Source: Chloroherpetonaceae bacterium
GTDB taxonomy: Bacteria > Bacteroidota > Chlorobiia > Chlorobiales > Thermochlorobacteraceae
Direction of reading: 5' to 3'
Length of the DNA stretch: 64,000 nt
Assembly: GCA_025056565.1 (NCBI GenBank)
Contig: JANWWA010000003.1
Location: forward strand, 1 to 64,000
Part shown: piece by piece, positions 34,740 to 38,505 of the stretch
Position numbering within the stretch: the stretch's first letter is position 1
Layout: each line of letters starts with the position of its first letter
The notes under the pieces: generated by a model
Seen by the model: the letters and a program-made list of their open reading frames with translations, nothing else
The model's database searches: none
Told to the model about the DNA's origin: nothing
Made by a program: the position numbers and the translations under genes

Positions 34740-34928
34740 ATGGCAAAAAAGGAAGCAAAGACTGCTGCAACCAAGAAGAAAGTGGAGCTTGGCTTTAAGG
34801 CTGTGAAGCTCGTCTATTCCACCAAATCACCGAAAACGGGGCACTGGCGATTTTCCGAAAAGCTGGTGAAAATTCCCAGCGGACAGGACGACATAAAGTT
34901 TTTGGAGCAGGAAATTAAGAAAGCGTAA
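34740..34928 (+). CDS. Small basic DUF4295-like protein
   Basis: A 62-residue basic protein (MAKKEAKTAATKKKVELGFK...). The core VKLVYSTKSPKTGHWRFSEKLVKI resembles the short DUF4295 proteins that are widespread in Bacteroidetes and that are often encoded with ribosomal protein L33. The match is by pattern only. It has its own promoter and a strong terminator 14 bp past its stop, so it is an independent small transcript. Confidence 0.6.
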   Translation: MAKKEAKTAATKKKVELGFKAVKLVYSTKSPKTGHWRFSEKLVKIPSGQDDIKFLEQEIKKA

Positions 34929-34990: not shown

Positions 34991-35005
34991 TGCAAGCTGT
35001 TTGCA
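34991..35005. promoter_or_regulatory. Palindrome upstream of merC (candidate metal-regulator operator)
   Basis: TGCAA-GCTGT-TTGCA, two perfect 5-bp arms with a 5-bp spacer, 16 bp before the merC-like ATG. The same form occurs again at 35455-35469 in front of the TonB receptor. Assigned as a Fur/Zur-type site by inference from the gene content. Confidence 0.5.
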
Positions 35006-35021
35006 AAACGGAACACTGCAA

Positions 35022-35432
35022 ATGAAAAGCATTCGCCTTGGGATATTGAGCCTCGATATGGTAGGCTTCTCGGCTTCGGCAGCCTGCGCCATTCACTGTG
35101 CAGCGATGCCTTTTCTGGTAACCAGCTTGCCGATGTTGGGGCTTGGGTTTTTAGCTAGTCCACTGGTTGAGCAGCTCTGCATCGTCTTTGGCTTGGTGGT
35201 CGGGGTCTTAGCACTGAGGCACGGCTTTCGGCATCACCACAACGCCACGGCTATCCTGATTCTCACCATCGGGTTTGCTGCCATTTTTGTAGCGCACTCT
35301 GGCTGGGTCGGTGAAGAGCTGGAGGAAGTGGTAACACCAGTTGGCGCATCGGTCGTGGCACTGGCACACTTAGTAAATTGGCGGCTGAGCCGAAATGCTT
35401 GCCAAAGTGAAAACTGCGGACACACTGCTTAA
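35022..35432 (+). CDS. MerC-domain membrane protein
   Basis: A 136-residue inner-membrane protein with four hydrophobic segments. The metal-site motif ACAIHCAAMPFLV (CxxHC) lies near residue 22 in the first helix; MerC proteins move soft or transition metals, and a second Cys pair (CQSENCGH) stands at the C-terminus. The ATG at 35022 is used (TGCAAATGAAAAGC context). The TonB-dependent receptor gene follows after 21 bp. The grouping of MerC with a TonB receptor and a lipoprotein is found in metal-uptake loci of Bacteroidetes, mostly tied to zinc (established for related loci in general, inferred here). Confidence 0.8.
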   Translation: MKSIRLGILSLDMVGFSASAACAIHCAAMPFLVTSLPMLGLGFLASPLVEQLCIVFGLVVGVLALRHGFRHHHNATAILILTIGFAAIFVAHSGWVGEELEEVVTPVGASVVALAHLVNWRLSRNACQSENCGHTA

Positions 35433-35453
35433 TTTTTTTTGAATATTTTTGAA

Positions 35454-37883
35454 ATGCAAATCGTTTGCAGAAAAGGTGTCGCTCTTGTGGTGTATTCAGC
35501 TATTGTTGCAAGTGCATTTGCAGAGCCTGCGTGGGCGCAAACAGCAGTGCTTTACGGCACAGTGCGCGACCGTGAAACAGGCGAGCCACTTCCCTCTGCT
35601 ACAGTGAAGGTGCAGGGCACAGCTCTCTGCACAAAAACCGATGCACAAGGCAAATATCGCTTAGAAGGCGTGCCCATCGGCAGGCTTGAGCTGCAAGCAA
35701 GTTTCGTTGGATACAAGCCAGAGACCATCTGGCTGCAGCGAACTGGTGCGGCGCAAGAAGTCAATTTCGCCCTGGAGCCGCACGAAGTAGAGAAAGCAGA
35801 AGTGGAGGTTCAATCGGAGCGAGAGCGGGCAGTGCTGCAGGCTGCTACTCAGTCAATTGCAACGATGAGTGCCGCTGACTTGGACAAACATCGTGGGCAG
35901 ACATTAGGTGAGACGCTCAGTCAGTTGCCGGGCGTAACCATCTTGCAAACTGGCCCCTCTATTGCAAAGCCCGTTGTGCGTGGGTTGCACAGTCAGCGCG
36001 TGCTAGTAATAAATGCGGGTGTGCGTCAGGAAGGGCAGCAGTGGGGAGCAGAGCACGCACCAGAGATTGACCCTTTTGCCGTGGCGAAAATTGAAGTGCT
36101 AAAAGGTGCGGCTAGCGTCGAGTACGGTGCTGATGCAATTGGCGGTGTAGTTCGCTTGGAGCCACGGTTGCTACCGACTGAAGCCAGTCCCAAAGGTGAA
36201 CTGACACTCAACCTCTTTAGCAACAACGCTCAAGGGGCATTGTCGGGACTTTTGGAGGGCAAATTAGGCGAGCAGATTGGTTGGCGTGTGCAAGCAAGTT
36301 GGCGTCGAGCAGGTGATGCAGCAGCACCAAGTTACTTCCTCACCAATACTGGCTTTACTGAACTCAATTTTTCAGCACACGCTGGTTACACAGGTGATTG
36401 GGGAGAACTCACAGCGTATTACAGCCGCTTTTCCACTGAACTGGGGATTTTGAAAAGTGCGCACATTGGTAATGTAACTGACCTTGTGCGCAGTATGCAA
36501 CGCTTGCAGCCCACTATCACCGACCCATTTTCATTTGCAATTGATTTTCCTCGTCAGCGCATTTCGCATGACTTGGTGTCGCTGCGGGCAAACCTGCAAA
36601 TGGCGACGCTGGGCAAAGTGCAACTAGCATATGGCTACCAGCAAAATATCCGTCAGGAATTTGATGCCCACGTGCCGATTGGCACTGACCCCAGCCGCCG
36701 TGAGGTGCCGGCCTTTGACCTCACGCTCTTTACGCACACTGCTGAAGCACGCTTTCAGCACAGTCCGATTGGCAAGCTTTTAGGCACAATCGGTGTGGCA
36801 CTAACGGCACAGTCGAACCACAACTTGGGACGTGCGGCATTGATTCCAAACTTTGCGGCCACAACCCTTGGCGGTTTCTGGCGAGAAGAATGGGTGCAGG
36901 ACAATTGGACGCTAAGCGCAGGCGTGCGATACGATGTGCGCTGGCAGTCGGCTTCGCCCTACGGCAGCAGCCGAATTGCGCAGCAACTGGCACGGGGCGA
37001 AATTCCAAACCAGCAGATGTTCCAAACCATAACGGGGGCACTGGGAGCAATCTGGCAGTTTGCCAAAGAGTGGTCACTGGCCGTGAATGTAGCGACAGCG
37101 TGGCGACCGCCCAGCATCAATGAGCTGTACAGCGACGGGGTGCATCATGGCACAGCACAATACGAAATTGGCAATCCGCGCCTTGATGTCGAGCGCAGCT
37201 TAGGCATTGATGCGACCTTGCGCCACTTCGGCATGCGCACACGCCTCGAGCTTTCTTTCTACCAAAACACAATCCTGAGCTTCATCTACCTCTTTCCACG
37301 CGTTGAGCCGATTATCACCATTCGAGGGGCGTTTCCAGCATTTGAGTATCAGCAAGCGAATGCCACGCTGCATGGCGTTGATGGCTTTTTTGAGTGGAAA
37401 GTGGCTGAGCATGTAGAGCTGTATGCCTCGCTTGCGCTGGTACGGGGCTGGAACGACAGACAGAATGAACCACTGATTGGGATGCCGTCAGATAGGCTCA
37501 CGCTGGGCACTCACCTCGACTTACCGGAACTGGCTGGACTGGAAAAGCCTTACCTCGAGATAAGCACAACACTCGTGCGACGGCAAGACTGGTATCCAAA
37601 GTTAGAGATGCCAGCGGAGTTGCCGCCTGCAGTCTCTGACCCAGAAGCCTATCAATTTTATGTGCAAAATCTCACTGCACCGCCAGCAGGCTATGGGCTA
37701 CTGAATCTAACGCTCGGCACAGAGTTTTCGCTGTGGGGACAACGTGCTGCGCTAATTGTCTCCGTGCATAACGCTCTTGACCAGCGCTACCGCAACTATC
37801 TCAGCCGCTATCGCTACTTCGCAGATGACCCCGGCAGAAATGTGATTGTGCGCTGGCAAGTCGCGTTTGGAGAGTTTCGCTAA
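35454..37883 (+). CDS. TonB-dependent outer-membrane receptor
   Basis: An 809-residue receptor. The signal peptide ends near AEPAWAQ (residue 28), and then comes a carboxypeptidase-regulatory-like N-domain (about 32-115; TVRDRETGEPLPSATVKVQG). The plug domain (about 130-245) has VVRGLHSQRVLVINAGVRQE and KGAASVEYGADAIGGVVRL, and the rest is the 22-strand barrel ending in VRWQVAFGEFR, a typical terminal aromatic strand. The ligand is not readable from sequence, but the MerC neighbour suggests a metal, probably zinc. ATG at 35454 is preferred to the TTG at 35439. A lipoprotein gene follows after 31 bp. Confidence 0.88.
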   Translation: MQIVCRKGVALVVYSAIVASAFAEPAWAQTAVLYGTVRDRETGEPLPSATVKVQGTALCTKTDAQGKYRLEGVPIGRLELQASFVGYKPETIWLQRTGAAQEVNFALEPHEVEKAEVEVQSERERAVLQAATQSIATMSAADLDKHRGQTLGETLSQLPGVTILQTGPSIAKPVVRGLHSQRVLVINAGVRQEGQQWGAEHAPEIDPFAVAKIEVLKGAASVEYGADAIGGVVRLEPRLLPTEASPKGELTLNLFSNNAQGALSGLLEGKLGEQIGWRVQASWRRAGDAAAPSYFLTNTGFTELNFSAHAGYTGDWGELTAYYSRFSTELGILKSAHIGNVTDLVRSMQRLQPTITDPFSFAIDFPRQRISHDLVSLRANLQMATLGKVQLAYGYQQNIRQEFDAHVPIGTDPSRREVPAFDLTLFTHTAEARFQHSPIGKLLGTIGVALTAQSNHNLGRAALIPNFAATTLGGFWREEWVQDNWTLSAGVRYDVRWQSASPYGSSRIAQQLARGEIPNQQMFQTITGALGAIWQFAKEWSLAVNVATAWRPPSINELYSDGVHHGTAQYEIGNPRLDVERSLGIDATLRHFGMRTRLELSFYQNTILSFIYLFPRVEPIITIRGAFPAFEYQQANATLHGVDGFFEWKVAEHVELYASLALVRGWNDRQNEPLIGMPSDRLTLGTHLDLPELAGLEKPYLEISTTLVRRQDWYPKLEMPAELPPAVSDPEAYQFYVQNLTAPPAGYGLLNLTLGTEFSLWGQRAALIVSVHNALDQRYRNYLSRYRYFADDPGRNVIVRWQVAFGEFR
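35455..35469. promoter_or_regulatory. Palindrome overlapping the start of the TonB receptor gene
   Basis: TGCAA-ATCGT-TTGCA, identical in arms and spacing to the site at 34991-35005, begins one base inside the ATG at 35454. A TATTTTTG element (35444-35451), which fits TAnnTTTG, lies directly before it, although no TTTG minus-33 box is seen. Confidence 0.5.
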
Positions 37884-37914
37884 AAATTTTCATTAACCTA
37901 AACAGTGGAGGACA

Positions 37915-38505
37915 ATGACTTACACAAAACTGCGAATCGTTCGCAACTCAAGCTTAACCTTGCTGCTCTTGGCGTTGCTAGCACTAACCAGCTGCCGCCG
38001 CACCGATAACCCCGCTGATGCAAGAGAGCAGGAGAAAATCACAACGCTCAAACTAAAACTGACGCCGACCACAGGCGGTGCACCAGTAGAAGCCACTTGG
38101 CGCGACCTTGATGGGCCAGGAGGCAATCCGCCGACGATTACGCCACTAAACTTGCGTGCAGGGGTAACCTACAACGGCGAAGTGGAAGTCAAGGACGAGT
38201 CTAAAAACCCGGCAGAAGACAAGACCGAAGAGATTGAAGAAGAGGGTGATGAGCATCTCTTTATCTACACCGTTGGTGGCAATGCAGCAGGGCGGCTCAT
38301 CATCACTCGCACCGATAGGGATAGAAACGGACTGGAAATTGGTCTGAAATATCGGGCACAAGTTACTGCAGGCGGTGCGACTGATGGCACCTTGCGCGTG
38401 GTGCTCTATCACTATTCTGGCTCTGTGCGCAAAACCGCTGCCTATTCACCCAGCAACGAAATTGACATTGACGCTACATTTCGTGTAAATATCGCTGCAC
38501 AGTAA
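37915..38505 (+). CDS. Lipoprotein associated with the TonB receptor
   Basis: A 196-residue lipoprotein: the signal LLLLALLALTSC has a lipobox with Cys27. The mature part contains WRDLDGPGGNPPTITPLNL, TEEIEEEGDEHLFIYTVGG and a beta-rich C-terminal region ending ATFRVNIAAQ. Similar proteins, sometimes annotated as type 1 periplasmic-binding-fold lipoproteins, lie next to such receptors in Bacteroidetes. The strong SD AGTGGAGGACA precedes the ATG. It probably acts in the periplasm or at the outer membrane together with the receptor; this is inference from position. Confidence 0.75.
   Translation: MTYTKLRIVRNSSLTLLLLALLALTSCRRTDNPADAREQEKITTLKLKLTPTTGGAPVEATWRDLDGPGGNPPTITPLNLRAGVTYNGEVEVKDESKNPAEDKTEEIEEEGDEHLFIYTVGGNAAGRLIITRTDRDRNGLEIGLKYRAQVTAGGATDGTLRVVLYHYSGSVRKTAAYSPSNEIDIDATFRVNIAAQ

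Follow-up and report, generated by a model that had tools for sequence, protein, structure and literature searches.

A boxed merC–TonB receptor–lipoprotein locus in a Chloroherpetonaceae bacterium and its predicted Zur-type zinc control

The locus and its three boxes

We analyzed a 64,000-nucleotide stretch of DNA (the window; contig JANWWA010000003.1 of assembly GCA_025056565.1) from a Chloroherpetonaceae bacterium, a member of the Chlorobi whose genome, labeled G000 here, comprises 2.92 Mb in 75 contigs. The subject is a locus in which merC, a TonB-dependent receptor gene, and a lipoprotein gene follow one another in the same direction with short gaps between the three. A preliminary description of this DNA had reported TGCAA-N5-TTGCA palindromes at the starts of merC and the receptor gene, and both are where it put them. 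It missed a third copy, a near-palindrome at the start of the lipoprotein gene that has counterparts at the equivalent place in two relatives (G001, which is of the same genus as the host, and G003). The features are as follows.

34991..35005: box 1, TGCAAGCTGTTTGCA, predicted Zur operator, 16 bp 5′ of the merC ATG (35022)
35022..35432, + strand: merC, 136 amino acids, candidate inner-membrane zinc importer (PF03203, E = 8.5e-24)
35455..35469: box 2, TGCAAATCGTTTGCA, overlapping the receptor ATG at 35454
35454..37883, + strand: ZnuD-like TonB-dependent receptor with an N-terminal carboxypeptidase-regulatory-like domain (Pfam; ZnuD structure 4rdr, 2e-30)
37931..37945: box 3, near-palindrome TGCGAATCGTTCGCA, starting at +16 of the lipoprotein gene
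37915..38505, + strand: lipoprotein of an uncharacterized family, predicted beta-sandwich, with an invariant lipobox cysteine (Cys27)

Among solved structures the receptor is matched best by ZnuD, followed by BtuB at 6e-11; it scores 119 bits against the NCBIfam ZnuD model, whose cut-off is 950, and we therefore call it ZnuD-like only. The lipoprotein has no Pfam match, and a fold search returned no confident relative for it (best E = 1.4e-3, TM 0.30). A scan for sigma-70 promoters found none, such a scan being uninformative in this phylum.

The preliminary description held that two such palindromes at neighboring gene starts are hard to explain by chance, an argument that fails as it was worded. 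The only zero-mismatch matches to the arms in the window are the sites at 34991 and 35455, and with up to two mismatches allowed the window contains 87 matches against 82 ± 8 by chance. Genome-wide, the arms TGCAA-N5-TTGCA have 20 exact matches where 21–25 are expected from order 1–4 Markov models (427 kb of host genome), i.e., there is no enrichment, and because the arms occur at chance frequency they prove nothing by themselves. Frequent occurrence in coding DNA had been named beforehand as grounds for giving up a regulatory role, and this is half borne out: many of the exact matches are indeed coding, but most of those are off-consensus; of all 20, more than half are off-consensus, and these are mostly intragenic. 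The longer form TGCAAAY-N-RTTTGCA is enriched, with 4 occurrences, the 35455 site among them, against 0.33–0.41 expected, and this 7-1-7 arrangement is a published layout of Zur boxes (PMC6103462). When the host genome was ranked with a scoring matrix built from the merC boxes of nine relatives alone, receptor and polyferredoxin sites took the top places (21.9–23.9 bits).

Conservation of the box and the genes that carry it

The merC gene is present in 10 of 81 genomes, namely the host and nine relatives, and each of the nine relatives has a TGC[AG]A-N5-TTGCA box shortly 5′ of it, within flanks that have otherwise diverged. Wherever a relative's contig reaches far enough, merC is followed by genes for the same kinds of receptor and lipoprotein (the G008 contig ends inside merC), and receptor-start boxes recur in G001, G002, G003, and G005. 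The strict box TGCRAAYNRNTTGCA occurs at 48 places in 11 genomes (G000–G010) versus 15 in 30 order relatives, a 6.9-fold difference in rate per base, with unique places tallied by hand; the matches inspected in the order relatives, which include matches from Chlorobiaceae, have no adjoining metal gene. It is because of this conservation that we take the box sites as real.

The association of the box with merC extends beyond the family. The MerC domain occurs in 140 of 392 genomes of a phylum sample, and we read 66 Bacteroidota merC loci, 17 encoding close homologues (profile score at least 89) and 49 encoding distant ones. A box with no more than one mismatch lies at −21 to −39 from merC in 17 of 17 close loci versus 3 of 49 distant loci (Fisher 4.5e-13), with the Bacteroidota consensus TGCAAC-N3-GTTGCA, and a Fur-family gene is found within the stretch read at 15 of 17 close versus 10 of 49 distant loci. 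The 17 close loci stem from two families (f6 and f9). In other phyla, mostly Planctomycetes, we found 21 loci with a Fur-family gene near merC (two of which overlap), and boxes before merC are enriched there, with 15 seen and 2.8 expected. Our search of the open-access literature found no paper tying MerC to Zur or zinc import and none on Zur regulons in either Chlorobi or Bacteroidetes.

The genome scan for metal-related neighbors that had been suggested at the outset was positive, mainly in the relatives. In the host genome, another receptor gene has two boxes (C2:235842 and 235917), a receptor gene that follows a DUF1826 gene is preceded by one (C1:499523), and so is a gene for a 4Fe-4S polyferredoxin (C1:502501). 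Among the relatives, G001 and G002 have boxed NDMSE-type COG0523 genes, G003 and G004 have copies that are broken or lie at a contig end, a ZIP transporter gene is boxed in G009, and further receptor genes are boxed as well (L138, L144, L154). The G001 COG0523 protein exceeds the NCBIfam ZigA cut-off (637 versus 600 bits). The box was not found at other COG0523 subfamilies, whose genes were sampled by family and not by box, and no nickel, iron, or copper transport genes or superoxide dismutase genes were among the boxed genes inspected. A site internal to the DUF1826 gene in G001 and several G009 sites are inside or distant from genes and may be chance. Published Zur regulons include DUF1826, COG0523, outer-membrane receptors, and QueD (PMC2770081, PMC5786701).

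Several further observations concern these genes. The gene for the small polyferredoxin (Fer4_5) is boxed in five genomes (L019:17919-18491, at the G000:C1 end, and L140, L143, L147, and L151) and is a putative Zur target that was not expected; in a paralogue (L018:8866-9516), an exact-arm site falls within the N-terminal coding region. A strict box in G009 (L129:5665) lies 228 bp before a QueD-like gene, after which comes a GTP cyclohydrolase I-like gene; genes of the two types are known from other Zur regulons. At the merC locus itself, a small Lys-rich open reading frame (MAKKEAKTAATKKK...) at window positions 34740-34928, directly 5′ of merC, is recognizable in several relatives, and an extra small His-rich reading frame with a CxxC motif lies between merC and the receptor gene in genus g3 and G010 (L101:5429-5740, L102:9204-9521, L103:9523-9942, and L099:3689-4087). 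Three genes are split into two frames by decay or draft-assembly error: a regulon receptor gene of the host genome (L019:13170-15468), the merC-locus receptor gene in G002 (L098), and the lipoprotein gene in G001 (L097).

Probable zinc control, the candidate repressor, and the missing importers

The box is a predicted operator common to several zinc-homeostasis genes and has the form of a Fur-family 7-1-7 inverted repeat, and these are two of the marks of a Zur regulon. The earlier suggestion of a Zur-type repressor gains good comparative support from the boxed ZigA-type COG0523 genes, the ZIP gene, the DUF1826-linked receptor, and a locus receptor whose nearest solved structure is ZnuD. We consider it likely that the locus is a zinc-starvation operon under Zur-type control, and we infer from the DNA sequences that zinc is the metal, that the control is repression, and that the encoded proteins act in transport.

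The host genome encodes two Fur-family proteins. The first (C1:467997) belongs to clade A, with members in each of the 16 genomes sampled, and is Fur-like in appearance. The second, of clade B (G000:C6:142554), has 148 amino acids, is encoded between dihydroorotase and hydroxymethylbilane synthase genes, matches the FUR domain PF01475 with 96 bits, and contains CxxC motifs of the structural-zinc type in HHHHIVCIDCG and GYCASC. All of G000–G010 and G012 have a clade-B protein, as does every sampled genome with a boxed locus, and the four Chlorobiaceae sampled lack one. Because its distribution follows that of the box, clade B is a likelier partner of the box than clade A, and we regard the clade-B protein as most likely the repressor at these sites.

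Several points weigh against Zur-type control or against this choice of repressor, beginning with the lack of enrichment of the exact arms noted above. Box 1, before merC, scores 17.0 bits and so ties with a site before an HU-like gene (C6:44400) where there is no metal gene. G012 is an exception to the co-distribution, with a clade-B protein yet only one strict box. The best solved matches of the clade-B protein are Fur, with actinobacterial Zur close behind and Escherichia coli Zur far down; the protein falls below every NCBIfam cut-off, and its sequence by itself does not mark it as Zur. Clade B joins the MerC-linked regulators from other phyla on a weak branch (40%). Finally, the related genomes are not independent, and for this reason the p-values given here overstate the evidence. 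As a separate observation, one G012 locus (L214, C68:84000-102000) contains genes for ZnuA, ZnuB, and COG0523, near which lie two more genes of the Fur family, and is a separate zinc island, perhaps an acquired one.

The MerC protein scores 84.6 bits against PF03203, whose cut-off is 27.6, and has the invariant residues D12, C22, H25, C26, E50, H67, H71, H72, H92, and H116, of which C22–C26 form a CxxHC motif; this set of residues would suit a metal path. A fold search with MerC returned nothing (best E = 0.56). ZnuA is absent from G000–G010, and the ZnuB permease, the importer component searched for in the 17 close-MerC Bacteroidota genomes, is absent from all 27 genomes with close MerC (G000–G008, G010, and the 17 Bacteroidota). 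ZIP is absent from G000–G008 save one sub-threshold match in G003, and G010 has merC and ZIP together. The merC-less order relatives G009, G011, G012, G014, G022, and G025 have ZnuA, ZIP, or both. Gaps in draft assemblies may conceal a gene, but these absences repeat over many genomes. The preliminary description had proposed looking for boxes before znuABC; being absent, znuABC is no possible target, and it is other genes of zinc type that are boxed.

ZnuA and ZnuB are missing, there is no clear ZIP, merC is always boxed, and the CxxHC motif and further histidines of MerC are invariant; hence our leading hypothesis, held tentatively and at slightly under even confidence, that MerC of this locus is the inner-membrane zinc importer. 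While zinc is in good supply, a Fur-family dimer loaded with zinc, most likely of clade B, would occupy the 7-1-7 boxes at all three gene starts and block expression of merC, the receptor gene, and the lipoprotein gene, and it would leave the boxes as zinc drops. The ZnuD-like receptor, with TonB, would then bring zinc through the outer membrane, the lipoprotein may help to hold zinc or pass it on, and MerC would move zinc through the inner membrane, filling the role of the absent ZnuABC and ZIP. More broadly, and just as tentatively, CxxHC-type MerC may represent an unrecognized class of zinc importer that is Zur-type-boxed across Bacteroidota and Chlorobi and replaces ZnuABC and, in the family of the host, ZIP. 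This class would probably extend to Planctomycetes.

A serious alternative, which we think possible but do not favor, keeps Zur control and zinc uptake and assigns import to an ABC-2 type system or an unrecognized transporter, with MerC as a sensor, chaperone, or leak channel. The candidate component is an orphan ATP-binding cassette (ABC) ATPase whose gene follows the boxed zigA in G001, G002, G006, and G008 (L143:1507-2208, L140:1460-2161, L147:6061-6903, and L152:5822-6691), and a Zur-controlled ABC-2 system, znuGHI, exists in Caulobacter (PMC4176598). However, the ATPase gene has no permease gene next to it, and boxed MerC homologues occur throughout Bacteroidota where ZnuB is absent and the ATPase is not part of the locus. 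It is unlikely that the box instead serves another metal, be it nickel through a Nur-type protein, iron through the Fur-like protein, or copper. The clade-B protein is nearer to Fur by sequence and a 4Fe-4S polyferredoxin gene is boxed, but ZigA, DUF1826, ZIP, and the ZnuD-like receptor are zinc-linked, and the inspected boxes lack the transport genes that any of these metals would call for. In favor of nickel, the Streptomyces Nur box resembles TTGCAA-N5-TTGCAA. Mercury resistance, apart from metal nutrition, has the Pfam domain name in its favor and is very improbable, since no mer genes adjoin merC in the window or in the relatives, merC is constantly paired with the receptor and lipoprotein, and the box and neighbors are of Fur type. 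Chance, with which the genome-wide frequency of the arms agrees, is hardly credible and already refuted by conservation, the box being kept before merC in every relative though the flanks changed and in all 17 close homologues across Bacteroidota.

Implications and comparison with known systems

MerC is a named candidate for inner-membrane zinc entry in Chlorobi and the many Bacteroidota that lack ZnuABC, and if it is a zinc importer, the automatic "mercury resistance" label on many genes would need correcting. The box likewise offers a predicted operator usable for finding the zinc regulon across a phylum.

The MerC of the locus is like that of mer operons in that PF03203 covers most of a small helical membrane protein. 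It differs in its CxxHC motif and invariant histidines, in the lack of nearby mer genes, and in its Fur-type box and Fur-family neighbors. Tn21 MerC has a vicinal cysteine pair where the MerC of this locus has CxxHC. Compared with ZnuD of Neisseria meningitidis (4rdr), the window receptor has an extra N-terminal carboxypeptidase-regulatory-like domain, and no His-rich runs were found in it.

The Zur regulons of Proteobacteria (e.g., Francisella, Caulobacter, Neisseria) comprise znuABC or zupT, ZnuD or other TonB receptors, COG0523/YciC/ZigA, and DUF1826. The set described here resembles them in its gene company, in its 7-1-7 type inverted repeats at gene starts, and in its controlled outer-membrane receptor. 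It differs in the letters of the box, TGCAA-N5-TTGCA here versus GTTA-N5-TAAC there, in boxes that lie over or inside gene starts, and in having no ZnuABC, with MerC at the inner-membrane importer's place. A parallel for this last difference is Caulobacter crescentus znuGHI/znuK (PMC4176598), in which Zur-controlled TonB receptors likewise go with an importer other than ZnuABC; there the importer is the ABC-2 system ZnuGHI, whereas here the orphan ABC ATPase has no adjoining permease and it is MerC that stands in the receptor operon.

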